A stretch of DNA of 64,000 nt, from contig CATQHT010000003.1 in NCBI GenBank assembly GCA_958296045.1, positions 507,246 through 571,245 of the forward strand, given 5' to 3'. Under the pieces are notes generated by a model, which saw only the letters and a list, made by a program, of their open reading frames with translations, did not search any database and was not told the origin of the DNA. Numbering within the stretch: position 1 is the first letter of the stretch; every line of letters begins with the position of its first letter. This DNA is from Rhodothermales bacterium (lineage in GTDB: Bacteria > Bacteroidota > Rhodothermia > Rhodothermales > Bin80). Below are positions 38,221 to 54,029 of the stretch, in pieces. Both the position numbers and the translations under genes were made by a program.

Positions 38221-39519
38221 ATGGACAAACTTGTCATCCAGGGCGGCCATTCGCTTGCGGGGACGCTGCCGATTAGCGGCTCCAAGAATACCGCGCTGCC
38301 TCTTATGGCGGCGAGCCTGTTGGCCGGGGGGGCCACGACGCTTGATAGGGTCCCACGTTTGCGCGATATCACGACGTTATCGCATGTCCTGCGCATCACC
38401 GGGGCCGAAGTAGCCCTTGAGGGGCATCGGATGCGCATAGATGCAGCTCGGATAGGATTTCCAGAGGCACCCTATGCGCTGGTCAAACGGATGCGTGCGT
38501 CATTCTATATGCTGGGAGCGTTACTCGGACGCTGCGGCCGTGCGCGGGTGTCGCTGCCCGGGGGCTGTGCCTGGGGACCTCGACCAGTGAATTTGCACCT
38601 GGAGGGTATTGCAGCACTGGGGGCATCGATCGATTTAGAAGAAGGATACGTGATCGCCAGTGCTCCGCGCCACGGACTACCGGGGGGATCCATTCGGCTT
38701 GAGCCATCGAGTGTGGGCGCAACGATCAACATCCTCTTAGCTGCATCGACAGCCAGGGGCACATCACGAATCGAGAACGCTGCAGTAGAACCAGATGTGG
38801 TTGTATTCTGTAAGATGTTGCGCGCTATGGGTGCCCGCCTGCGCGGCATTGGGACACGCACGTTAGAGGTCGAAGGTGTACAAGACCTGCGTGCCGTTGC
38901 TTACAGCAATTGTCCAGACCGTATCGAGTTGGGTACGTTCATGATTGCCGCCGCGATTGCGGGGCGCCCGGGGGCGAGTGTTCGACTTATAAACGTGCAA
39001 CCAGACCATCTGGGCCAGGACTTTCTGGCCGCATTCCGCCAGACTGGCGCGGGCTGCAGGATTCGTGCGAATGAGTTGGAGGTTACGGCGCCAGACGCGC
39101 TGCATCCAGTCTCCGTAACTACAGGCATCTACCCGGGGTTTCCGACTGATCTGCAGGCCCAGTGGACGGTATTGCTCGCCTGTTGTCAGGGTACGAGCAT
39201 GGTCCGCGACGCGGTTTACGGGGACCGCTTTAATCACATCCCAGAGCTGGCCCGTTTGGGAGTACAGGCCCGTGTGCAGGGCGACACCGTCACCATTGAC
39301 GGCGGCACGCCGCTCAGTGGTGCACAGGTGATGAGTACAGATCTACGGGCTAGTGTATCGCTAGTGCTGGCTGGCATGGTCGCTCGTGGTACTACGCATG
39401 TGGGTCGCATCTACCATCTGGACCGCGGCTACGAGCAGTTGGAGAAAAAGCTAAACGCCTGCGGAATAGATATCCAACGGGTACGGTACGATGAGCACGC
39501 TGTCCCCGCATTCAGGTAG
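38221..39519 (+). CDS. murA: UDP-N-acetylglucosamine 1-carboxyvinyltransferase
   Basis: A 432-residue MurA, the first committed step of peptidoglycan synthesis, adding enolpyruvate to UDP-GlcNAc. The conserved Lys is K22 in LPISGSKNTALPLMAASLLA and the catalytic Cys is C116 in VSLPGGCAWGPRPVNLHL, so fosfomycin sensitivity is expected. ALVKRMRASFYMLGALLGR and GIYPGFPTDLQAQWTVLLA are also typical. The stop is a tandem TAG TAG. The oldest CRISPR repeat begins 15 bp later, so the array and murA converge and murA read-through would be antisense to crRNA precursor. Confidence 0.96.
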   Translation: MDKLVIQGGHSLAGTLPISGSKNTALPLMAASLLAGGATTLDRVPRLRDITTLSHVLRITGAEVALEGHRMRIDAARIGFPEAPYALVKRMRASFYMLGALLGRCGRARVSLPGGCAWGPRPVNLHLEGIAALGASIDLEEGYVIASAPRHGLPGGSIRLEPSSVGATINILLAASTARGTSRIENAAVEPDVVVFCKMLRAMGARLRGIGTRTLEVEGVQDLRAVAYSNCPDRIELGTFMIAAAIAGRPGASVRLINVQPDHLGQDFLAAFRQTGAGCRIRANELEVTAPDALHPVSVTTGIYPGFPTDLQAQWTVLLACCQGTSMVRDAVYGDRFNHIPELARLGVQARVQGDTVTIDGGTPLSGAQVMSTDLRASVSLVLAGMVARGTTHVGRIYHLDRGYEQLEKKLNACGIDIQRVRYDEHAVPAFR

Positions 39520-39533
39520 TAGTACGCCTAATG

Positions 39534-42500
39534 TATCCATCCTCGCGCTTGCGGGGTAAGCGTTTGGACATGTGCTCCACTTGATCCATCTTGTGGTCCA
39601 TCCTCGCGCCTGCGGGGTAAGCCCAGCTATGTCCATGAACTTCTGCCATCCCGTTGGTCCATCCCCGCGCCTGCGGGGTAAGAAGCATTGAGATCGGGGT
39701 CGGGCTGGTCATTTGCACGGGTCCATCCCCGCGCCTGCGGAGTAAGCGGATGCTGCGAACGCGCTGCGACGAACCAAGGAGGTCCATCCGCGCGCCTCGG
39801 GGCAAGCCTGCTGGCGCTCCGCATACCGCGCCATGCGCAAGGTCCATTCCGCGCGCCTGCGGGGTAAGCGCAGGCAACATCGTCACGCGTGGCGCCAACG
39901 TGGGTCCATCCGCGCGCCTGCGGGGTAAGCCATTGAGCCACGAAGCCGGTAGTCCAGGACATGGGTCCATCCCCGCGCCTGCGGGGTAAGCTTGGACTTG
40001 TAGACCTTGCGCATGCCGATCTGCGGTCCATCCCCGCGCCTGCGGGGTAAGCCGGACTGCGTCAAGGTCTATCGTAGCCTTGCCAGGTCCATCCCCGCGC
40101 CTGCGGGGTAAGCAATCTCCGCCGGGTTTTCACGCATGGATGTAGAGGTCCATCCCCGCGCCTGCGGGGTAAGCAATCCGCCACCAGGGACGGTGTGCTT
40201 GTGCGAAGGTCCATCCCCGCGCCTGCGGGGTAAGCGTCGAGCGTCACCCCTCATGTCGAGAGGTAGCAGGTCCATCCCCGCGCCTGCGGGGTAAGCGGTA
40301 TTTCCTTGGCGCCATTCATGCCGAGCATGGGTCCATCCCCGCGCCTGCGGGGTAAGCTCTGACTACTCGGAGCTCATTACCGCTGAGCAAGGTCCATCCC
40401 CGCGCCTGCGGGGTAAGCTAAAGCTCGTAGGTTCCTGCGAAGTTGATGTTGGGTCCATCCCCGCGCCTGCGGGGTAAGCTTGGACTTGTAGACCTTGCGC
40501 ATGCCGATCTGCGGTCCATCCCCGCGCCTGCGGGGTAAGCTCGTCACCGAGAAAAGCCATCTCCTCGATGTGGGGTCCATCCCCGCGCCTGCGGGGTAAG
40601 CTTGGACTTGTAGACCTTGCGCATGCCGATCTGCGGTCCATCCCCGCGCCTGCGGGGTAAGCTCGTCACCGAGAAAAGCCATCTCCTCGATGTGGGGTCC
40701 ATCCCCGCGCCTGCGGGGTAAGCGATCTACGACTACCCGATGGATGTCCGGGTGAAGGTCCATCCCCGCGCCTGCGGGGTAAGCATGACTACGACGGTCC
40801 CCTTTTGGAAGGCGAAGGGTCCATCCCCGCGCCTGCGGGGTAAGCCTCATCGGGAGCCTCACCGTCCAGCGCCATAAAGGTCCATCCCCGCGCCTGCGGG
40901 GTAAGCTTTTAGCATGCCGGTGTTCCAGGTTTTGGTGGGGGTCCATCCCCGCGCCTGCGGGGTAAGCATAGACGCCATCAAGGGCACGCCGGCGCACCTG
41001 GGTCCATCCCCGCGCCTGCGGGGTAAGCCACTCCCGCGGTGTCAGCTTGCGGGGGTAGGCAGGTCCATCCCCGCGCCTGCGGGGTAAGCACGCAGAGCTG
41101 AATCAGAGCATAGGGCAGCACCGGTCCATCCCCGCGCCTGCGGGGTAAGCTCCAGCACGGATGCCCCGTCCGCTCGTGCCTGGGGTCGATCCCCGCGCCT
41201 GCGGGGTAAGCCGTTGCGTAAGGTGCAACTTTCGTATCTTGCTGGGTCCATCCGCGCGCCTGCGGGGTAAGCTCCATGTGCCGAGTGATGAAGACGCCGG
41301 ACGAAGGTCCATCCCCGCGCCTGCGGGGTAAGCACGCTGGCGGAGTTTCGGGTGACGTTTCTGGAGGGTCCATCCCCGCGATTGCGGGGTAAGCGGCAGC
41401 GGCAAAAGCCGTGTCTAGGAGCTGGCCGGTCCATCCCCGCGCCTGCGGGGTAAGCGATCTACGACTACCCGATGGATGTCCGGGTGAAGGTCCATCCCCG
41501 CGCCTGCGGGGTAAGCATGACTACGACGGTCCCCTTTTGGAAGGCGAAGGGTCCATCCCCGCGCCTGCGGGGTAAGCAAACCGTCCGGGCTGGCTTGACC
41601 GCTGCCTGAAGGTCCATCCGCGCGCCTGCGGGGTAAGCTTGACGACGTGATCCACCAGGTCGCGGACCGCGGGTCCATCCCCGCGCCTGCGGGGTAAGCA
41701 CGCAGAGCTGAATCAGAGCATAGGGCAGCACCGGTCCATCCCCGCGCCTGCGGGGTAAGCACCAGCACGGATGCCCCGTCCGCTCGTGCCTGGGGTCCAT
41801 CCCCGCGCCTGCGGGGTAAGCCGTTGCGGACCGGCATACCAGCTGTTAACGCGAGGTCCATCCCCGCGCCTGCGGGGTAAGCTCGATAGTGCCGAAGACA
41901 CGGCCGAGAACAGAGGGTCCATCCCCGCGCCTGCGGGGTAAGCGCAGCGCTGAACACGGACATGGAGTTTGAGCTCGGTCCATCCCCGCGCCTGCGGGGT
42001 AGGCCGTCCAGCGCGCACTAGTGCCTCGTGCAGTGACGGTCCATCCCCGCGCCTGCGGGGTAAGCTGCACCCTGCTACCCCTCGTGGTGCTGGCGCTCGG
42101 TCCATCCCCGCGCCTGCGGGGTAAGCGTGTGCGTCACGGCGCCGAGGCGGCGGTAGTAGGGTCCATCCCCGCGCCTGCGGGGTAAGCACGACGGCGGCCG
42201 CAGGTGAGATGAACGTCCAGGGTCCATCCCCGCGCCTGCGGGGTAAGCGGCAGCAGGCGGCCGGCACCGTTGCGATGCGCAGGTCCATCCCCGCGCCTGC
42301 GGGGTAAGCGGCTCGCTTTGGGAGCGAGCGGGTCAGTGACAGGGTCCATCCCCGCGCCTGCGGGGTAAGCTCTAACGGCAATCGGTACATCTCCGACAAG
42401 GCGGGTCCATCCCCGCGCCTGCGGGGTAAGCATCCAGGTGGAGTCCATCGGCGGCGACAGGACGGGTCCATCCCCGCGCCTGCGGGGTAAGCGTTTTGAA

Positions 42501-44871
42501 GCGACCAGCGTCGCTAGGTGGCGTCGGTCCATCCCCGCGCCTGCGGGGTAAGCGCCCGCTTCAGGTTGCGGACACATCTATGCGCCGGTCCATCCCCGCG
42601 CCTGCGGGGTAAGCGTCGGGGTTCATAGTGGTGGATGCCATCCCGTGGGTCCATCCCCGCGCCTGCGGGGTAAGCACTCCTCCGCGTGGTGCACCAGTGG
42701 ACCGCTGAGGTCCATCCCCGCGCCTGCGGGGTAAGCGCTATGACGATCTGTCTCAGGGTCTGAAGCTGCGGTCCATCCCCGCGCCTGCGGGGTAAGCTGC
42801 GTCGCTAGCTCGGTGACGGCCTGGCCGATGGGTCCATCCCCGCGCCTGCGGGGTAAGCCCTGATAACGGGTGAATCGTCCTTGAATAGCCAGGTCCATCC
42901 CCGCGCCTGCGGGGTAAGCGTCCAGATCTACCGGCGGCGCCTCAAGAAGGAGGGTCCATCCCCGCGCCTGCGGGGTAAGCAAGTCGGCGCCGACAGCACG
43001 GGCCACCCAGCGCGGTCCATCCCCGCGCCTGCGGGGTAAGCCTTGAGGGTTGCCTGCTGAAAGAGTGCCATCACGGTCCATCCCCGCGCCTGCGGGGTAA
43101 GCCCTTGGAGTCAGTCTGTTTGGACATGGAGATGGGGTCCATCCCCGCGCCTGCGGGGTAAGCTTGTTGCCCTCACGCATCTCCCGCAACAGAATGGGTC
43201 CATCCCCGCGCCTGCGGGGTAAGCCAGCCGCCTCTGTGCGTCAGGAGGCCTGGCACAGGTCCATCCCCGCGCCTGCGGGGTAAGCTATCTCGGCCAGACC
43301 GAGCACTGCCGCCGTCGAGGTCCATCCCCGCGCCTGCGGGGTAAGCCATGGCATTCCAGAGTGGGATGCCCTGCAGCCGGGTCCATCCCCGCGCCTGCGG
43401 GGTAAGCCACGCTAGTCCATCCCGAGAGCGCATCGACAAGGGTCCATCCCCGCGCCTGCGGGGTAAGCCTGCCGTGCTCGCGACCATCGAGCTCGTCGCG
43501 CGGTCCATCCCCGCGCCTGCGGGGTAAGCATCGGGACGCTGATTGCGCAGACGAGCGAGGTGGGTCCATCCCCGCGCCTGCGGGGTAAGCGTGCCGCCGG
43601 TCACGGTGGTCAACAATGACATGGGTCCATCCCCGCGCCTGCGGGGTAAGCATCAACGACGCGGTGTCCATAGGTCTTCGCCCCGGTCCATCCCCGCGCC
43701 TGCGGGGTAAGCGGCCAAGCTGCACGGGTGGCTCGTCTACCACACGGTCCATCCCCGCGCCTGCGGGGTAAGCCATACCACGTCAGCCCTCGTGTGCTAG
43801 CTCAGCGGTCCATCCCCGCGCCTGCGGGGTAAGCTGGTCTTTGAATAGCGCGACGCAGCACCACCACGGTCCATCCCCGCGCCTGCGGGGTAAGCCAAAG
43901 CTCAGCAGCTGGAAGCTGTTGGCTACGGGGTCCATCCCCGCGCCTGCGGGGTAAGCGCCGTGTCGCCATCCTGCAGAAACTCGGTGTAGGGTCCATCCCC
44001 GCGCCTGCGGGGTAAGCTTTGGGATCACGGGGTAACGCTACAATGGACCAGGTCCATCCCCGCGCCTGCGGGGTAAGCGGCCGGCCGTAGCGATCCGAGT
44101 AAATGTCGTCGGGTCCATCCCCGCGCCTGCGGGGTAAGCTGGAGCAGCAGCTGGGTGCGGCGCGCCCGTAACGGTCCATCCCCGCGCCTGCGGGGTAAGC
44201 GGAGCGGGGATCGAACGCAAACAGCTGGGAACAGGTCCATCCCCGCGCCTGCGGGGTAAGCGCTTGGTTCGTCTCGTTTGTCTAGGCAATGAACGGTCCA
44301 TCCCCGCGCCTGCGGGGTAAGCCTGCGTCCGGTCCGTCGTCGCCGTGTCGACGGGGGTCCATCCCCGCGCCTGCGGGGTAAGCGCTCGATAATTGCTGCA
44401 CTGAACTCACCCCACAGGTCCATCCCCGCGCCTGCGGGGTAAGCCTGGCCTTGGTCGTTACCCGCCTCCACGACCGCGGTCCATCCCCGCGCCTGCGGGG
44501 TAAGCGCCGACTACCGGCGGCTGCTGAAAGCACGTGCCGGTCCATCCCCGCGCCTGCGGGGTAAGCGTGCCGGTGGCGGACGACGACAGCGAGCTGGTGG
44601 GTCCATCCCCGCGCCTGCGGGGTAAGCTCGTTTTGTTGAGATCCAGCAATGTCTTGTTGGGGTCCATCCCCGCGCCTGCGGGGTAAGCGCGTTAACGTTC
44701 GAGAGTGTAGTCCGTACAGATGGTCCATCCCCGCGCCTGCGGGGTAAGCGGCAACGAAATGGGCTGCGTACATCTGGTCGTAGGTCCATCCCCGCGCCTG
44801 CGGGGTAAGCGGTGAAGCGCCACGTGTCGCCCTTCATCCGGTCGGTCCATCCCCGCGCCTGCGGGGTAAGC
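39534..44871 (-). CRISPR. type I-E CRISPR array, 88 repeats
   Basis: I count 88 repeats of 28 nt at a 61-nt period, so 87 spacers of about 33 nt. In the minus (crRNA) orientation the repeat starts GCTTACCCC and ends GGGGATGGACC around the hairpin CCCCGCAGGCGCGGGG, closely matching the E. coli I-E repeat. The leader is at the right, next to cas2; the left end is the oldest. Repeats starting at 39534, 39595, 39656, 39720, 39781, 39841 and 39904 are degenerate (one has 3 extra bases), and scattered variants occur up to about 41977. The 47 repeats from 42038 to 44844 look identical. Several spacers are duplicated in blocks (see findings). Short frames that cross it are artefacts of the repeat. 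Confidence 0.98.
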
Positions 44872-44938
44872 ACATACGAAGGCGAATATATGGCTATTAC
44901 ATGAACATCTCAACAAACCTCACAGAGAATGCGAGATG
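44872..44938 (-). promoter_or_regulatory. CRISPR leader
   Basis: 67 bp of AT-richer sequence between the newest repeat and the cas2 stop. In I-E systems the leader lies here and carries the promoter of the array and the site where Cas1-Cas2 and IHF act. I do not find a good IHF site. Instead a perfect 8-bp inverted repeat, AACATCTC (44904-44911) and GAGATGTT (44933-44940), spans it and reaches the cas2 stop codon; it could be the integrase recognition site or a cas terminator. Confidence 0.7.
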
Positions 44939-45235
44939 TTAGAGCCCACGTCGAACTATAAATACACCGTCGGAATTCACAAGGTTCCGAGGCGTGTCTC
45001 CAAGCACAAGTACTCCTTGGCGCTCAACGGCATTCGGCTGAGCCCAAGTGACCAAAATAGAGCCCTGCTGGAATTCGACCCACCACTTCTCGAGTACGCC
45101 GCAAACCCTCTCCCGCACCGAAGTTGTCATATCCGGCGAAGTATAAACCCCAGGTGCTATCTCAAGCATACAGGAGGCCAAGAATCCCCGGAAACGTGAC
45201 GGCACGTCACGCGTCACCACTACGCACATCGGCAT
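44939..45235 (-). CDS. cas2: CRISPR-associated endoribonuclease-fold protein Cas2e
   Basis: A 98-residue Cas2 of the I-E/CasF type, the structural half of the Cas1-Cas2 integrase that captures spacers. I start at the Met giving MPMCVVVTRDVPSRFRGFLA because family members start with the first beta-strand there; the frame opens slightly upstream. Other blocks: CMLEIAPGVYTSPDMTTSVR and GSILVTWAQPNAVERQGVLV. It overlaps the cas1 end by about 29 nt, so the two are coupled. The last gene of the cas operon, it abuts the leader. Confidence 0.93.
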   Translation of the reverse strand: MPMCVVVTRDVPSRFRGFLASCMLEIAPGVYTSPDMTTSVRERVCGVLEKWWVEFQQGSILVTWAQPNAVERQGVLVLGDTPRNLVNSDGVFIVRRGL

Positions 45236-46091
45236 AAAACAACTCCTTAATACGGTCAATCATCGTTGCAATCAAACGCCGAGTCCTGAATTCTTTCCCT
45301 GCCAAGCGCCGCACACACCGCTCTAAAGGCACATTCGGATGACGCTCGTGAATTCGGACAGCCCTAAATGCCACGGGCACCGTGATCTCCGCACGATATA
45401 AGTCTGCAACATCCAACACAAATGCGATGCTGGAGTGCTCGTGGATAAAGCCAAGCTGCGGCAGGGCGCCAACACTGGCAACCGCAATTGAAGCCGCCGC
45501 CTCGATCGCCGTGGCACTATGATTTATGGCCTGGTTCGGAAGGTCTGCAGCATTAGGATTCTGGCGATCGTAACGACGACCATGCCACTTTATCCCGCAC
45601 TGCTGAGCAACCGTCTTGTACATGGTGCGCATCCGGGCACCCTCCATCCCTCGAAGTGCATTCAGATCAAGGTTTGGAAACTCCTCGCCAAGCCGCCAAG
45701 CATAGAGCCTTCTCACGCTGGTCAAACGCTTCTCTGTATCCGACCACAGCAGGGCCTGACGCCGAGCGAGGGCCGAATCGCCTGGGCCATGAGGCGGAGC
45801 AGTGTATGCCCGCACACCACCTTCACCGACAGCAACAATGCAGGTGCCGTGCCTCGCGCAGAGCCGAAGAACATCGTGGCTAATAGTCGTGCCAGGCCCC
45901 AGCAATAGCATGGATACCATCTGAAATGGAATGTCGTACCGCCCAGAGTTAAGTTCACCATCACCAGCCGTACGGAAACACAACGTTCCAGCTTCAACCG
46001 TCAGGCGCCCGCGGGACAGCCAGATCAGCCCGTGACGGTCACGATGCGGAATACGGGCACTCTCGAGTCCCAGCCGCCCATGCAACACCAT
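45207..46091 (-). CDS. cas1: CRISPR integrase Cas1e
   Basis: A Cas1 of about 294 residues, the metal-dependent integrase that joins new spacers to the leader-proximal repeat. Catalytic blocks are visible: Glu in NALRGMEGARMRTMYK, His and Asp in LGFIHEHSSIAFVLDVADLY, matching E141/H208/D221 of E. coli Cas1. The N-terminal RIPHRDRHGLIWLSRGRLTV is typical of I-E. I prefer the ATG at 46091 (MVLHGRLGLES) to a TTG four codons earlier. It lies between cas6e and cas2 with a short gap and an overlap. Confidence 0.95.
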   Translation of the reverse strand: MVLHGRLGLESARIPHRDRHGLIWLSRGRLTVEAGTLCFRTAGDGELNSGRYDIPFQMVSMLLLGPGTTISHDVLRLCARHGTCIVAVGEGGVRAYTAPPHGPGDSALARRQALLWSDTEKRLTSVRRLYAWRLGEEFPNLDLNALRGMEGARMRTMYKTVAQQCGIKWHGRRYDRQNPNAADLPNQAINHSATAIEAAASIAVASVGALPQLGFIHEHSSIAFVLDVADLYRAEITVPVAFRAVRIHERHPNVPLERCVRRLAGKEFRTRRLIATMIDRIKELFYADVRSGDA

Positions 46092-46111
46092 AACAAGAAA
46101 CAATAAGAAGT

Positions 46112-46975
46112 CTACGCCGGCCTGAGGCGCAGCATGCCAAAACCAAAGCCACAGTGGCGGCCAATTCCCCTCAAGAGCAGCTCGGAAAACCGCCTAGGGC
46201 CAGTGATCTCAATCAACCCCGAAAAGTGCACATCGGGCCGGGTCAGCCACTTAGCAGCAGGTCTCCCACCAGGGGCTCGCGGCGGCCTGCGCAGCAGCCG
46301 GGTGGAACGGAATGACTCCACCCGCACGGATCGTGGAAGCAAATGCACCGCCTGGCGGTGAGACATACCCTTAAATCTATACTGAAGCCACTCCACATAC
46401 GCCTGATCTCTGGATGGCACCGGGTCGCCCCTGTCGCGTGCTCGCACAGCCGCACACTGGTAGGCGTCAACTTCGCCTCCTTTTCTAACGGTCACGGCAT
46501 CGAGATTCGGACCAGCCGACGTGGTCAGCGGACGTGCTAATCTCCGTACTGGACAAGCCCGTAAATCAAATCGCATACGCAGATCTGACGGCCACTCCAA
46601 TGGCAATGGCTTGGATCGCGCACCATCCCAATTCACCAGATCATGGGATTCGTCGAAGCTCAACTGTGCCAAGGCCTTAAGCCTGCCCAGAGACACTCGG
46701 CTATAACCTAAGAGGTACCCCTCTCCTGGCCGCAGAGAATAGCTATAACCTGAACGGCTCCGGCTGCCTTGGCCAAATGCCAAGTAATAGAAGGGCCGAG
46801 GGGCCTGTTCGCCGAACATGGCAGCAAGAACAGCATGAAGTGCATATCCCTCGTCTGCCACGCGCGGTCGCCCGCGCCCATCCCCCGGTGGACTCCGCAG
46901 GAATCTGCGATCCAGTGCCCACTTCGTAAATGCCCGTTGCCGAAGGGGCAGCTGTATAAGGTGTAATTCAGGCAT
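46112..46975 (-). CDS. cas6e: crRNA-processing endoribonuclease Cas6e
   Basis: A 287-residue Cas6e (CasE/Cse3) that cuts the precursor crRNA within each repeat. The catalytic pair corresponds to Y44 and H47 in DEGYALHAVLAAMFGE, spaced as Y23/H26 of the E. coli enzyme. The Gly-rich RNA-binding loop near the end is GIGRHCGFGFGMLRLRP, and VHFSGLIEITGPRRF is typical. The start overlaps the cas5e end by 8 nt. The stop is TAG. Somewhat longer than the E. coli protein (199), through a middle insert. Confidence 0.93.
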   Translation of the reverse strand: MPELHLIQLPLRQRAFTKWALDRRFLRSPPGDGRGRPRVADEGYALHAVLAAMFGEQAPRPFYYLAFGQGSRSRSGYSYSLRPGEGYLLGYSRVSLGRLKALAQLSFDESHDLVNWDGARSKPLPLEWPSDLRMRFDLRACPVRRLARPLTTSAGPNLDAVTVRKGGEVDAYQCAAVRARDRGDPVPSRDQAYVEWLQYRFKGMSHRQAVHLLPRSVRVESFRSTRLLRRPPRAPGGRPAAKWLTRPDVHFSGLIEITGPRRFSELLLRGIGRHCGFGFGMLRLRPA

Positions 46976-47753
46976 CGCTCACTTCTGGTGACGTTCCTTG
47001 AACCGCCAGCCGTGCTCGGGCAACCGCGCGTTCTCCACCATGAACCTGATGCCTCCAGTCACGCTGGTCAGTGACCCTATGCACCCGAATTCCATGTGAA
47101 ACGTCCACGTCCCTCTCACTGGAAATCGGCCATTCTGCTGGCAGTGGCTCTGTCTTATCATTGCCACCAATGGCAGCCCACAATGTGGGGAATTCCTGAG
47201 GAATCGCCATCAACGCTTCCCTCATATCCCCCGCGTACTGTAAAATGCCAACAACCATTCGTGTAGAAGGTAGGCAGGGCTTACGGCCAATGTACAACGG
47301 ACGGTGTGGCGTCGTAAGAGCATCCGCAAGAACGTCGAGCGTAGGCTTCGTGTCGGCAGGCCTAAGCGAGATTGCGGCAACCACCGTGGCATCCGCGCGG
47401 TATCTCCGCAGGCGAATGTGTGTGCCAAAGCGGGCAGACGGTCCACCGGTACGATGCTCAGTCCGGCCCCATGTGGTCCAACCCGGAGAACGAAGATGAG
47501 GCAAACCTAAGTCAACCGTTTGAAAGTCCTCAAGCTCCTCACCCTCAGACACCAACAGACTTGCTATCTGCAACCTACCCTGCAGCGACTGAATCAGGTT
47601 AAAATCGCCAAAACGGTAGCCCAAGGCATTCGCGAATAAACCGGTCACCTGGCTTAAGGTCGGAAATCGCCCGGTGGGCCCATACTGGTCCACCTGCGGG
47701 GTTCCGAAGCTCATAAGAGGAGACTGCAGATGTATGATGAGTGCATTGCGCAT
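46968..47753 (-). CDS. cas5e: Cascade subunit Cas5e
   Basis: About 261 residues. Cas5e (CasD) caps the 5' handle of the crRNA in Cascade. I start at the ATG at 47753 (MRNALIIHLQSPLMSFG), one base after the cas7e stop, because LQSPLMSFG is the family's first strand; an upstream start would run into cas7e. Blocks: GPTGRFPTLSQVTGLFANAL, GWTTWGRTEHRTGG and RPLYIGRKPCLPS. The stop overlaps cas6e. Confidence 0.93.
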   Translation of the reverse strand: MRNALIIHLQSPLMSFGTPQVDQYGPTGRFPTLSQVTGLFANALGYRFGDFNLIQSLQGRLQIASLLVSEGEELEDFQTVDLGLPHLRSPGWTTWGRTEHRTGGPSARFGTHIRLRRYRADATVVAAISLRPADTKPTLDVLADALTTPHRPLYIGRKPCLPSTRMVVGILQYAGDMREALMAIPQEFPTLWAAIGGNDKTEPLPAEWPISSERDVDVSHGIRVHRVTDQRDWRHQVHGGERAVARARLAVQGTSPEVSDA

Positions 47754-47754
47754 C

Positions 47755-48963
47755 CTACACTGAGTCCACTGTAACCTGAGACACTGCGTCACCCGCCCAG
47801 TCTGCCAAACTCGAGAGTGTCACTGACTCACCTGCGGATTCGGGAATGGGTTCAATCATGGAGGCGACACGACGCTCCTCAAAGCGGCCATACATCTGGT
47901 CATACCTGGTCAAATAACTCCCAATAGCTGCCACGGCTTCCGCCTGGACAGAAACCTTTCGCACCGGCTTCATAAAGGCATTGGCCAGGGTACGTGGCTG
48001 GTGGCTGCCGATTTCTGCAAGCACGAACTCGGCACAGGCATATGGTGCCGTCGCCCCGAGTTTTGCACCTGGCGACACGGTTGCGATCAAGCGTATCAAG
48101 CGACGTACGACCTCAGCGCTAAGTTCCGCATCATTTGAGACGTTGCTGACCAGCTTACGTAGATCCACCACCACATACCCGTAGAATAAGCCGCTCGTCA
48201 ATTCGCTGGTGTTGATGTGGCCTGATCCCAGCTCTCCCCTTTCTGCCAGAATGTCGTCCAATGCCGAAAAGTAGTCCGGTTCTGCGTCTTCAGCATGAAC
48301 AGTGAAACTGTGGGCAACATGCACGGCGGCATCGCAGCGCGCCAGAATATCTGACGTGACCATACGCCCAAACAGGCATGCGTCGAGTCCAGCGTTTGCA
48401 ACCTGCGCCAAGTTGCTGCGTGTCGCCTTCTCCTTGAATTCCTTAGCTACAGCTTTCTTGATGTCGCCTTCACCATCTTTTACCAACCTAGCAGCTAAGC
48501 CTACAATAAAGTCCACCTCTGGCCGCCCAAGTACGATAATCTGATCCGTACTCAGTTCCTTCACGAAAGCCTCACGCGATATGGACTCTTCGCGCTTCTT
48601 ACCCTTGCGCGCCGTCCGAGCTTTCACACTCTCGCCGAGGATACGCGCACGGATTGGGTTGAGCACGGTCAATATCGCCTCGTCTGACAGGCGATGCTCC
48701 TCGCGAAGGCGGTCAGCAATGGTCTCGCTAAATATCCGCCTGGATCTTATCGAGCTCCCCTTGCCGAGGTCACTGAGCGACCACTCCCCCGTCGCCCGCC
48801 GCCAGTGCCGTTTGAGGCACTGAGAAGATACACGGATGCGACTGTGCCCACCGAATGGCAAACGCTTCGCGCGCCCAACGTCATCTCTGTTTAAGAGAGT
48901 CGCCGAATACCCTGTGAGAGTATGCAACTGCAAGAAATTATGAGCCATCTTGTTTGAGGTCAT
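47755..48963 (-). CDS. cas7e: Cascade backbone subunit Cas7e
   Basis: A 402-residue Cas7e (CasC/Cse4), six copies of which coat the crRNA spacer. Blocks: NFLQLHTLTGYSATLLNRDD, KRLPFGGHSRIRVSSQCLKR, DACLFGRMVTSDILARCDAA, HSFTVHAEDAEPDYFSALDD and GHINTSELTSGLFYGYVVVD. The family usually has about 360 residues; this one carries a somewhat longer middle (ESVKARTARKGKKREESISR). The stop TAG is followed one base later by the cas5e start. The real start may be the Met at residue 6. Confidence 0.95.
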   Translation of the reverse strand: MTSNKMAHNFLQLHTLTGYSATLLNRDDVGRAKRLPFGGHSRIRVSSQCLKRHWRRATGEWSLSDLGKGSSIRSRRIFSETIADRLREEHRLSDEAILTVLNPIRARILGESVKARTARKGKKREESISREAFVKELSTDQIIVLGRPEVDFIVGLAARLVKDGEGDIKKAVAKEFKEKATRSNLAQVANAGLDACLFGRMVTSDILARCDAAVHVAHSFTVHAEDAEPDYFSALDDILAERGELGSGHINTSELTSGLFYGYVVVDLRKLVSNVSNDAELSAEVVRRLIRLIATVSPGAKLGATAPYACAEFVLAEIGSHQPRTLANAFMKPVRKVSVQAEAVAAIGSYLTRYDQMYGRFEERRVASMIEPIPESAGESVTLSSLADWAGDAVSQVTVDSV

Positions 48964-48987
48964 GTTACGTGTTAAAGTGTATCCGCT

Positions 48988-49560
48988 TCAGGATCTCTGG
49001 GCTTCGGCACTGAAGAAGTCACGTGAAAGCTGATGGATGCTGGACTTCCTATACACTCCCGGCAAACGAGTGCTACCTAGCACAAGCGACGCTGGATACC
49101 TCCAGTCAGCTCGGAGCACCCCCTTGCCCGCCAACCACGCAGCTGCAACCCTGAGTTCGCGCCTCAGCGACGATCCCTCGGCACGCACCAGCCGCACAAA
49201 GCGCGCCTCGGAATATCCCGATTCGCCAAGTGCCTTCCCGAATCGTACCTCAAATGAATGAGGATTTGGCGTCATCTCAACCATCGCGCGAATCACGGTC
49301 GCCCATGCCATATCCACGTCGGAGCTTGGATACCCATTCGGAGCTCTCCAGCTTTGAGGAATCACGCTGTCGTTGAGATATAGCCTCCAGAAGGCCGGAG
49401 GCAGCTGGTCATCAGCAATGCGACGCAATTCCGCGAGCATGCCAGTTCCGATTCGGCTGGCGCTCATCCGTTTCGACAACCCCGCCAGCACATGACCCAG
49501 CGTGGCCTCCGCTACAGGGGCCTCAGACAAAATGGATACGGATTGTACAGATTCAGTCAT
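48988..49560 (-). CDS. cse2: Cascade small subunit Cse2 (Cas11e)
   Basis: A helical protein of about 190 residues. Two copies of Cse2 hold the target strand and crRNA in Cascade. I start at ATG 49560 (MTESVQSVSILSEAPVAEAT), which overlaps the cse1 stop by ATGA. Blocks matching the family: PPAFWRLYLNDSVIPQSWRA, VIRAMVEMTPNPHSFEVRFG, GKALGESGYSEARFVRLVRA and DFFSAEAQRS near the end. The cas7e gene follows after 24 bp. Slightly larger than E. coli CasB (160). Confidence 0.9.
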   Translation of the reverse strand: MTESVQSVSILSEAPVAEATLGHVLAGLSKRMSASRIGTGMLAELRRIADDQLPPAFWRLYLNDSVIPQSWRAPNGYPSSDVDMAWATVIRAMVEMTPNPHSFEVRFGKALGESGYSEARFVRLVRAEGSSLRRELRVAAAWLAGKGVLRADWRYPASLVLGSTRLPGVYRKSSIHQLSRDFFSAEAQRS

Positions 49561-51116
49561 TCGGCAGATGGGTTGGGAATTGCTGCGGCAAATGCTTCCG
49601 GCACGCACTTTCGGAGTCCACCGAACAGCACTGCCTGCGCCTTCGCGCGCGCCTTTTCACGACGAGCACTAGGCGGGGAATACCGGTCCCATGCGCGTGT
49701 CGCATACTTGATCGCCTCATCTTTCAGAAACCGCTGCCACTGTTCGTCCACAACGTCGAAACCTCGTTGCGGAGCAGTGAACAGGAGATCAAAAAAACTT
49801 CCGTCGATAGCGCGGTCGAAACTCGCAACCACAGGCCGCGCTTCAGCCCCCTTCCAGTTAGGGTGTTCGGGACCATGGAGGTAAACCAAGATCGCCTGCC
49901 GCAGCACCTTGCGAGCTAGTGATGCCTTACCCACCATTTCCTCAGAAAGCTTTGCAAGCGAGGTGTAACCCTCGTCTGCGTCATCTCCGAAGCGAATCCT
50001 TTTGGAATGCGCCAGCGGAACGATGCGCTCTTGCAGCCCTTGTGTCTTTCCTTGCTCACGCGCGAGCACAAGCAGATGAATTTCAGTATCGGACTCTCCT
50101 TCGTCCTCAATCGCCGCGAGAGCAAGCGGTCTGTCGATAGCCTTGTCGAACAAGATGCGGTGCACCAACCGGTAGTCAAATCCCCTTCCACTCACAGTCA
50201 GCGCCTTGACCCCCTTCTTGTCATGAATAACCGGGACCCAAGGATCCCCGAGATGTCCCTTAAGATCCTTTGCATTGATGCGTGCTCGCTTCGACCCAGT
50301 ACCCAATGCGCTGATATCTCCATCTGGACCTATAACCAAGCGCAGCCGTCGGCAAACTTCGATGAAGTAGGGATCGAGCGTATCGACTTCGATTTGGGCA
50401 TCTGTGTCCCAGCTTCGTAGCCATGTGAGAGCCAACCCGCCCGTGGCGCGGTACATGTCATCACTGACACGATTGAGCACTCGCCTGCGCTGAATCACCA
50501 GCATGCGGATTGCGCGCATCACACGCAGGCCCCATCGCCCACTCGGGCGGCGATCTACGAGCACCCGACTTGAAGTGCCCCCATTCATGCGGGCAATACC
50601 ATAGTTGTTTCTGCCGGAATACCCATGGCTGGTCTGTGCTGCCACGAGTGCAAACAACCAAGCGTGCACTGCGCTAGCAGCAACCGGTCCACTCTTACGG
50701 TCATGATTTTTTGATGTGACTAAAATGTCAAGCTCGCTTGGCGACACCGCTTGTGTCTTGTACTCGCCGACGCGCGCAGTAGGCATCTGCATGAAGGCGG
50801 GCTTGGAGGCGTCAGCCACCACCAGGCTCCACGCGGTATCGCTACACCCAGGCGTTAATGCGGACAGCAAAGAATGCCACTCTGAAGGAGATTTTGGCGT
50901 TTCTCCGCTCTGGGCACGATGCGCCGCGATAGCGCCGAGTTGCGCTAGAAACTGGTACCACGCTTGTGACTGGTGGCGGGCAAGGCCAGGAAAAGACTCA
51001 ATCTCGTCCAAGGCAAGGTAGCTGTATAGCCGGGGCAGCGTCACAGTGTCCAGAACCAGCCCTCCCCGGCCACCAAGTGATACTGGAATTGTTCGATCCG
51101 TCAGAAGGTCGAGCAT
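49557..51116 (-). CDS. cas8e: Cascade large subunit Cas8e (Cse1)
   Basis: A 519-residue Cse1/CasA, which recognises the PAM and recruits Cas3. N-terminal MLDLLTDRTIPVSLGGRGGL, then LYSYLALDEIESFPGLARHQ and WYQFLAQLGAIAAH are typical of this family (E. coli CasA 502). RNNYGIARMNGGTSSRVLVD matches the conserved NYG region near the L1 loop that reads the PAM. First gene of the minus-strand cas operon; its promoter must lie in 51117-51428, opposite that of cas3. Confidence 0.93.
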   Translation of the reverse strand: MLDLLTDRTIPVSLGGRGGLVLDTVTLPRLYSYLALDEIESFPGLARHQSQAWYQFLAQLGAIAAHRAQSGETPKSPSEWHSLLSALTPGCSDTAWSLVVADASKPAFMQMPTARVGEYKTQAVSPSELDILVTSKNHDRKSGPVAASAVHAWLFALVAAQTSHGYSGRNNYGIARMNGGTSSRVLVDRRPSGRWGLRVMRAIRMLVIQRRRVLNRVSDDMYRATGGLALTWLRSWDTDAQIEVDTLDPYFIEVCRRLRLVIGPDGDISALGTGSKRARINAKDLKGHLGDPWVPVIHDKKGVKALTVSGRGFDYRLVHRILFDKAIDRPLALAAIEDEGESDTEIHLLVLAREQGKTQGLQERIVPLAHSKRIRFGDDADEGYTSLAKLSEEMVGKASLARKVLRQAILVYLHGPEHPNWKGAEARPVVASFDRAIDGSFFDLLFTAPQRGFDVVDEQWQRFLKDEAIKYATRAWDRYSPPSARREKARAKAQAVLFGGLRKCVPEAFAAAIPNPSAE

Positions 51117-51428
51117 CTCGTGGAGATCATTGGATCAGTAACCGGAGCAGCTACAATTGTCAAAATAGCACCAGTACCGCGGACGGTGGTAGAATTTCCA
51201 GCGAATTGTACTATTCTGATTGGCTACTGCTATACTTTGGAACGCCATTGTGGCTTAGGATAACTGGTCAACTGCCGCGGCACATTACCTTTGGAGGACC
51301 AGCGGCGATCGCCCGACACAGATTCTGACATGAGCGTCCTCCGCACCGATACTTGAGTGAGGCGAATAGCCCGCCGTTTGATGCACTCTGCATATGCCGA
51401 TACACGCACTCCTATACATCGTGAGACT
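51117..51428. promoter_or_regulatory. divergent control region between cas8e and cas3
   Basis: About 310 bp between divergent cas8e and cas3, the obvious place for control of both Cascade and Cas3. The central part (about 51140-51245) is clearly AT-richer than its surroundings. I do not see a strong operator palindrome. A GTG-initiated frame could extend cas3 upstream to 51357, but that stretch does not look like Cas3. Confidence 0.45.
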
Positions 51429-54029
51429 ATGAAGCAGACGATCGACACCGCGCAGCGTCCACGGGCTTGGGCTAAGTCTAAGGATGGCAAACCATCACTT
51501 AGCCTCGTGGATCACTCCATCGATGTGGCCTCTATAGCAGAAGTGCTCTTGCAGGTCCCTACAATTTTTTCCCGGCTCAAGGTGCTTGCAGGTCAAGAGT
51601 TGAATAATTGCCATAGCGCTCGCCTGGCCTTCTTGATCGGACTTCATGATGCCGGCAAAGCTTGCCACGGCTTCCAGGCGCGGCTGATAGGGTCAAAGCC
51701 TGATTGCGGTCACATCGGACCCATCTGGCCGATCGTGAGTGGGAAGGTGATGCCGAAGGTACAACGCAGGGTCGCCGCAGGTGTGCGTCGAGCTCTAGGA
51801 CATTCAGCGTGGCGAACTTGGGTGGCAGATCACCGACCACTATGGGACGCCATACTAGCACACCACGGCAGTCTGCCTGGAATCTTATCGGCACGAGTGG
51901 ATGCGCAACAATGGCTCCCCAAGAACAGCTACGACCCCATAGCCGAAATCGCCTCCGTGACTGCGGCCATGAGAGCCATGTTCCCGGACAGCTACAGTGG
52001 GGACCCCGATGCCAGCCTTCCACACTCCCCCCGCTTCCTGCACGCATTTGCTGGTCTGGTCACACTCGCTGACTGGCTTGGCTCTGATGAGAGTGAGTTT
52101 CCAGCGCCAGGGAACAACACACCGACCGGCCATGCTCGAATTTCGTGGGCCCGCAGGCAAGCCGCAGACCTGGTCCGTCGTAGGTGGCTTGACCCCACAA
52201 GAGGGAGGCTTGCAGCCCAATCAGTCGACGTGAGTTTTGGGCAACTGTTTCCTCAATGGAAAGAACCGCGCCCGTCCCAGGAAGCAATGCTATCCATGGA
52301 TCTGCCGAATCCAGGGCAGATCACCATCCTCGAAGCTGAAACTGGCTCAGGTAAGACTGAAGCTGCCCTAATCCTATTCTTGCGCCTGTTTCAGGCTGGG
52401 GTGGTCGACGGTCTCTACTTTGCACTTCCGACACGCGCTGCCGCAGTCCAGATCCACCGCAGGCTACAAGAGCAGCTTAAGGTATGGCTCGGCGACGCAT
52501 CGCCCCCAGTTGGGTTGGCCGTCCCCGGCTACATCCGCGTTGATACGGATAAAGGCCAACGTATGCCTGCATCATTTGACGTGCAGTGGCCCGACGAAGC
52601 CGATAAAGACCGCGGCTGGGCGGTCGAACAGGCGAATCGGTACCTGGCTGGAGCAGTAATGGTGGGTACGGTGGATCAGGTTCTTATGGGTGGGCTACGA
52701 GTACGCCATGCGTCATTAAGGTCTGGTCTGATGCTGCGCCTGCTGTTGTGTATCGACGAGGTCCATGCCTCAGACACGTACATGATTACGCTGATGCGAA
52801 ACGTGCTTGACCAACACATGAGTGCCAGCGGAGTCGCGCTGCTGATGTCCGCCACGCTGGGATCCCAGGCACGCGCACGCTTGCTGACAAAAGGGCGCGT
52901 AGAAAAACGAGAATTACCTACCCGTGCCGATGCAGCGTCTATTGGCTATCCAGCTGTCAGCCGCACCGGCAAACCCATGCTTCTGTTGCGGACTGGTGAG
53001 TTGGACAAGCGGGTCAACATCGACCTTGTGGGTCTGGAGCTGGAGTCCCTCTGGACTCGGATAAAGGCAGCAACCGTTGCAGGGGCCGCGGTACTGTTTA
53101 TTCGCAACACGGTCGACGGCGCGCGAACAGCGGTGAAATGCCTAGAAGACATAGGAGTCCGTGTATTCACGTGCAAAGGTGTGGCCGCTCCCCATCACGG
53201 GCGATTCGCGCCGTCTGACAGGGTTTTGCTTGACGAAGCCTTGATAAGCGCATTCAATAGCAGTTGTAATGACGGATTCGTAGCCGTCACCACTCAGACA
53301 GCGGAACAATCACTGGACATTTGTGCAGACTGGCTTATCACAGATCTCAGTCCCGGAGACGTGCTGCTACAGCGAATTGGCCGCCTACACCGCCACGATC
53401 GCTCCCGACCTGCCGGATTTGACAAACCTGTTGTTACGATCCTGAGCCCGACACCGGGGGAATTGGCGCAGCGCTTGGATCCTGACTACGGAACACCTCG
53501 CGGACAGAGCCTATTGGGGCTTGGGCGTGTGTACCAGAACATCTTGGGCGCCTTAGCAGCGCACACCTGGTTACAGGGGCGGCAACAGTTCACCATCCCG
53601 AGAGACAATCGTGCACTTGTGGAGGCATCCACGCACTCTAGTTCTCTGCAGGAATTGGCCATTGACCTTGGCGGGGTTTGGCCGATCCATCTGGCTGCAG
53701 TGACAGGCAGCAGGTTAGCCGAAGGCCAAGCTGCAAAGACGGTTGCCATACGCTGGGAGGAGCCACTTGCTGAGAATCAGCCAATTCCTGACATCGCCGC
53801 CATAACACGGCTTGGCCTTAATGATCATCGCGTGAAACTGTCAAAACCCCTGGATGGCCCCTTCGGGAGCCAGGTACGGTCCTTTGTGATACCCGGCTGG
53901 ATGGCGCCAGCCAACATGGCGGACCTGGCTGACAATGCGCCGGGCATAGTGCGCGCAGACGGCCATACACTGAAGTTTCGGCTTGGGAACAAAGAGTTCA
54001 CCTATGACCGCTTCGGGCTGAAGGCATGA
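51429..54029 (+). CDS. cas3: CRISPR-associated helicase-nuclease Cas3 (HD-helicase)
   Basis: 866 residues from the ATG at 51429 (MKQTIDTAQRPRAWAKSKDG). The HD nuclease has H29, H73-D74 (LIGLHDAGKACHGFQARL), the HH at 145-146 (LAHHGSLPG) and D215 (TLADWLGSD). The SF2 helicase has Walker A LEAETGSGKTEAALIL (about 301), DEVH at 443-446, LLMSATLG and motif VI LLQRIGRLHRHDRSRP. It degrades DNA marked by Cascade. It is divergent from the Cascade operon, and convergent with the cytochrome gene 31 bp downstream. All catalytic residues are present, so interference should be possible. Confidence 0.96.
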   Translation: MKQTIDTAQRPRAWAKSKDGKPSLSLVDHSIDVASIAEVLLQVPTIFSRLKVLAGQELNNCHSARLAFLIGLHDAGKACHGFQARLIGSKPDCGHIGPIWPIVSGKVMPKVQRRVAAGVRRALGHSAWRTWVADHRPLWDAILAHHGSLPGILSARVDAQQWLPKNSYDPIAEIASVTAAMRAMFPDSYSGDPDASLPHSPRFLHAFAGLVTLADWLGSDESEFPAPGNNTPTGHARISWARRQAADLVRRRWLDPTRGRLAAQSVDVSFGQLFPQWKEPRPSQEAMLSMDLPNPGQITILEAETGSGKTEAALILFLRLFQAGVVDGLYFALPTRAAAVQIHRRLQEQLKVWLGDASPPVGLAVPGYIRVDTDKGQRMPASFDVQWPDEADKDRGWAVEQANRYLAGAVMVGTVDQVLMGGLRVRHASLRSGLMLRLLLCIDEVHASDTYMITLMRNVLDQHMSASGVALLMSATLGSQARARLLTKGRVEKRELPTRADAASIGYPAVSRTGKPMLLLRTGELDKRVNIDLVGLELESLWTRIKAATVAGAAVLFIRNTVDGARTAVKCLEDIGVRVFTCKGVAAPHHGRFAPSDRVLLDEALISAFNSSCNDGFVAVTTQTAEQSLDICADWLITDLSPGDVLLQRIGRLHRHDRSRPAGFDKPVVTILSPTPGELAQRLDPDYGTPRGQSLLGLGRVYQNILGALAAHTWLQGRQQFTIPRDNRALVEASTHSSSLQELAIDLGGVWPIHLAAVTGSRLAEGQAAKTVAIRWEEPLAENQPIPDIAAITRLGLNDHRVKLSKPLDGPFGSQVRSFVIPGWMAPANMADLADNAPGIVRADGHTLKFRLGNKEFTYDRFGLKA

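Follow-up and report, generated by a model that had tools for sequence, protein, structure and literature searches.

Spacer duplication in described and related arrays

Repeat-mediated duplication and deletion in CRISPR arrays has been reviewed (PMC8047081): blocks recur, they lie mid-array, the trailer end stays stable, and misalignment during replication is a likely cause. Short repeats favour RecA-independent slippage; for CRISPR arrays direct evidence is lacking (PMC8047081). Using SpacerPlacer, duplication candidates were found to comprise 3.3% of 24,090 spacers, with simple duplications (86%) far ahead of rearrangements (5%) and reacquisitions (1%; PMC11472070). The phenomenon is already well known, and the example described here, from a type I-E array within a 64,000-nucleotide window (the whole stretch of DNA that was analyzed) of a Rhodothermales bacterium, is ordinary. 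It shares with the published spacer-block duplications (PMC11472070) blocks of conserved order, edges that mostly fit junctions at repeats, a mid-array position, and a spared trailer end, and differs in a somewhat high load of extra copies (7/87 spacers) and in one edge that shares 7 bases past the repeat.

A comparison set of 35 type I-E-like arrays, taken from loci around related cas1 genes, was used to explore how common such copies are among relatives. Duplicated spacers occurred in 17 of these arrays and extra copies accounted for 47 of 1,875 spacers (2.5%), compared to 8% in the array studied here, 13.5% in L042, and 11% in L046, placing the array at the high end of the set, not outside it. 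L042 repeats a block of five spacers 8 units further on, with unique spacers separating the two, and L046 has nine extra copies and a variant repeat that was duplicated together with its spacers; each genome is listed as a single contig. Relative to the type I-E arrays of L042, L046, L056, and L074, the repeat type and the kinds of duplicated block, some of them spaced, are the same, whereas the spacers and offsets differ and no spacer is held in common with the relatives compared. The Chloroflexota type I-E array L074:5078-13858, from a fragmented metagenome assembly, has eight extra copies, with the shared spacers scattered widely along it and not all in the same order, a greater degree of shuffling than in the present array.

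The type I-E array and its surroundings

The array adjoins a complete type I-E CRISPR-Cas system, with all eight cas genes matching PADLOC I-E profiles:

39534..44871, predicted minus strand, type I-E CRISPR array (88 repeats of 28 nt, 87 spacers)
within 44939..54029, minus strand, cas2e, cas1e, cas6e, cas5e, cas7e, cas11e, and cas8e (PADLOC profiles)
51357-54029, plus strand, cas3 (PADLOC profile)

The consensus of the 88 repeats is GGTCCATCCCCGCGCCTGCGGGGTAAGC, the repeat period is 61 bp, and the spacers are 33 nt long in 86 of 87 cases, with a single spacer of 36 nt. The 28-nt repeat and 61-bp period agree with what defines a type I-E array (a palindromic repeat of 28–29 nt, spacers of 32–33 nt, and an adjoining cas2). 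Only the array itself matched the repeat in its own genome, and the repeat was absent, allowing ≤3 mismatches, from all 58 other relatives searched. Five repeats, those of units 5, 6, 7, 29, and 35 (39781-41638), share a variant with G in place of C at position 10, and their spacing does not fit the offsets of the duplicated spacers.

The stop codon of cas2 lies 67 bp from the last repeat, with a short AT-rich leader on the cas2 side beside the 44871 end, while degenerate repeats occupy the trailer end (39534-39930). Based on this arrangement, the high-coordinate end is probably where new spacers are added, and the crRNA sense strand is predicted to be the minus strand. The duplications would therefore sit in the older part of the array, in agreement with the earlier note, which had placed them in the old half. 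In the short leader (44872-44938), which separates cas2 from the first repeat, the minus strand carries an inverted repeat, AACATCTC ... GAGATGTT, the first arm of which begins at the end of cas2. At the trailer end (39519-39534), the array starts ~14 bp past the stop codon of a murA-like gene, which reads, judged by its translation alone, as a UDP-N-acetylglucosamine 1-carboxyvinyltransferase.

Duplicated blocks and the origin of the copies

Duplicates were defined by an all-against-all comparison of spacers, with units numbered from the trailer (old) end. Six spacers recur, leaving 80 of 87 distinct and seven extra copies, all within units 8–37: A (units 8, 16, and 18), T (17 and 19), G (20 and 32), M (21 and 33), C (26 and 36), and D (27 and 37). 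The copies are arranged as follows:

39992..40024, spacer A, copy 1 (unit 8; all-against-all comparison)
40452..40723, tandem duplication of the two-unit block A-T with its bounding repeats (spacers at 40480 and 40541, then 40602 and 40663; 0 mismatches)
40724..40817, spacers G (40724) and M (40785), copy 1 (units 20-21; spacer comparison)
41456..41549, spacers G and M, copy 2 (units 32-33; offset 732 bp or 12 units, 0 mismatches)
41090..41183, spacers C (41090) and D (41151), copy 1 (units 26-27; spacer comparison)
41700..41793, spacers C and D', copy 2 (units 36-37; offset 610 bp or 10 units)

Every coordinate in the earlier note was reproduced by this comparison, which yielded no further duplicates. 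The three copies of A (39992, 40480, and 40602) are identical, and the claimed tandem two-unit block was recovered with 40541 equal to 40663 at an offset of 122 bp. The pair at 40724 and 40785 returns unchanged at 41456 and 41517, and the pair at 41090 and 41151 returns at 41700 and 41761 with the single changed base that had been reported. The two copies of C are identical, and the change lies in the first base of D' (41761), which is A for the T of D (41151). Beyond these there were no near-matches, the next best pair of spacers having 13 mismatches, and shuffled spacers gave a minimum of 12–14 mismatches over 30 positions; a chance origin of the spacer matches is excluded.

The copies keep the register of the array, every offset (122, 488, 610, and 732 bp) being a whole number of 61-bp units, and the copied units are whole repeat-spacer-repeat blocks of ~150 bp (three repeats and two spacers). 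The order A-T-G-M-C-D is constant wherever these spacers occur, and the repeats between and around the copies match the consensus, save for one change in the repeat after D. The interval from M to C holds four spacers in copy 1 and two in copy 2, all different. None of units 1–7, with the degenerate trailer repeats and their spacers, takes part in the duplication. The clustering of copies in the old half is not, on its own, strong evidence, with only three to four independent events. The proposal that recombination between repeats had both copied and shuffled old spacers was supported as to block copying through the repeats, by the whole blocks, the multiples of 61 bp, and the preserved order, with replication slippage serving as well as recombination; 'shuffling' was not supported, with all copies following one linear order.

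Spacers that recur in register and in the same order, with 0–1 mismatch, very probably reflect ordinary events in a type I-E array, where the 28-bp repeats misaligned, blocks of repeats and spacers were copied as a result, and some blocks were later deleted. Identical repeats could misalign through either replication slippage or RecA-dependent unequal recombination, with which the copies are equally compatible. At minimum, the history would comprise a tandem duplication of the two units A-T, a further duplication that put A 8 units away, and a larger one spanning G M ... C D, after which each copy would have lost different spacers. Alternatively, G-M and C-D may have been copied in separate two-unit events, and the array alone fits both. 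Because the copies made by one tandem duplication lie side by side, the spaced pairs require deletions, which would have removed some copies and left the co-ordered pairs apart. This need for deletions counts against duplication through the repeats, as do the 7 extra shared bases beside D and D', which lie outside the repeat.

The same pattern might come from the assembly step, if it had fused the arrays of two strains living together or joined up repeats belonging to one array. The assembly has 4 contigs and a completeness of 96.7%, and both stretches of G M ... C D resemble haplotypes of one region, with different intervening spacers and one base change. However, the identical blocks extend over only ~150 bp, and long reads, which a 4.78-Mb genome in four contigs suggests were used, would cover such blocks in full. 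Further, the duplication pattern is also present in single-contig relatives, making ordinary biology the likelier source, and an artefact is considered very unlikely. Unequal recombination with the diverged array of a sister strain, joining two haplotypes of one ancestral array, would likewise leave shared anchors enclosing different spacers in each copy and a D and D' that differ by one base. Such an exchange would need the same deletions as duplication within the lineage, plus the exchange of DNA, and recombination between arrays is described as rare where PMC11472070 cites Kupczok et al.; this origin is judged highly improbable.

With cas1 and cas2 both present, the same spacers could in principle have been taken up several times, in independent events, from phages that kept returning, and this could apply to spacer A at 39992, which recurs without a neighbour. 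This explanation was rejected because ordered pairs recur, and with reacquisitions amounting to only ~1% of duplication candidates (PMC11472070) it is extremely unlikely to account for the copies. Misalignment between repeats within the lineage, followed by deletion, is the preferred reading.

The edge beside D and D' and the targets of the array

The block edges in the array fit a junction within the repeat, with 0–2 further shared bases, except for the edge beside D and D':

41822..41854, spacer adjoining D' (first 7 bases, CGTTGCG, common with spacer 41212-41244 adjoining D)

On the plus strand this spacer ends in GACCGGCATACCAGCTGTTAACGCGA, and the two spacers diverge after the 7 leading bases. 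They form the only non-duplicate pair in the array with ≥7 leading bases in common, situated exactly at a duplication edge, and the longest shared stretch at 75 duplication edges of other arrays was 5 bases. The chance of a 7-base match is estimated at ~1 in 1,000 (about 4^-7 per edge, for some ten edges), for a match noticed after the fact. As a weak lead, the junction may have run into the spacer, or a longer tract of homology may have favoured exchange at this site. It is doubtful that the D/D' boundary ran 7 bases into the neighbouring unit to create a chimeric spacer of normal length (41822-41854), and a literature search returned no chimeric or hybrid spacers in CRISPR arrays. If such a spacer were real, rearrangement of arrays would make new guide sequences besides copying old ones.

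No protospacer was found for the whole array among phages, and plasmids gave only GC-rich matches, mostly with 60–80% identity. These plasmid matches were discarded as protospacers, resembling other CRISPR repeats or GC-rich DNA of low specificity. Exact cores of the six duplicated spacers had no match in viral contigs, and three of the duplicated spacers, searched with ≤3 mismatches in 244 genomes of the class, matched only their own array. The effect of the extra copies would probably be limited to a higher crRNA dosage against targets already covered. In line with earlier descriptions for other arrays, spacer order in this array does not strictly record time, and old spacers can gain copies with no new infection; the seven duplicate copies should be collapsed before spacer order or counts are taken from this array.
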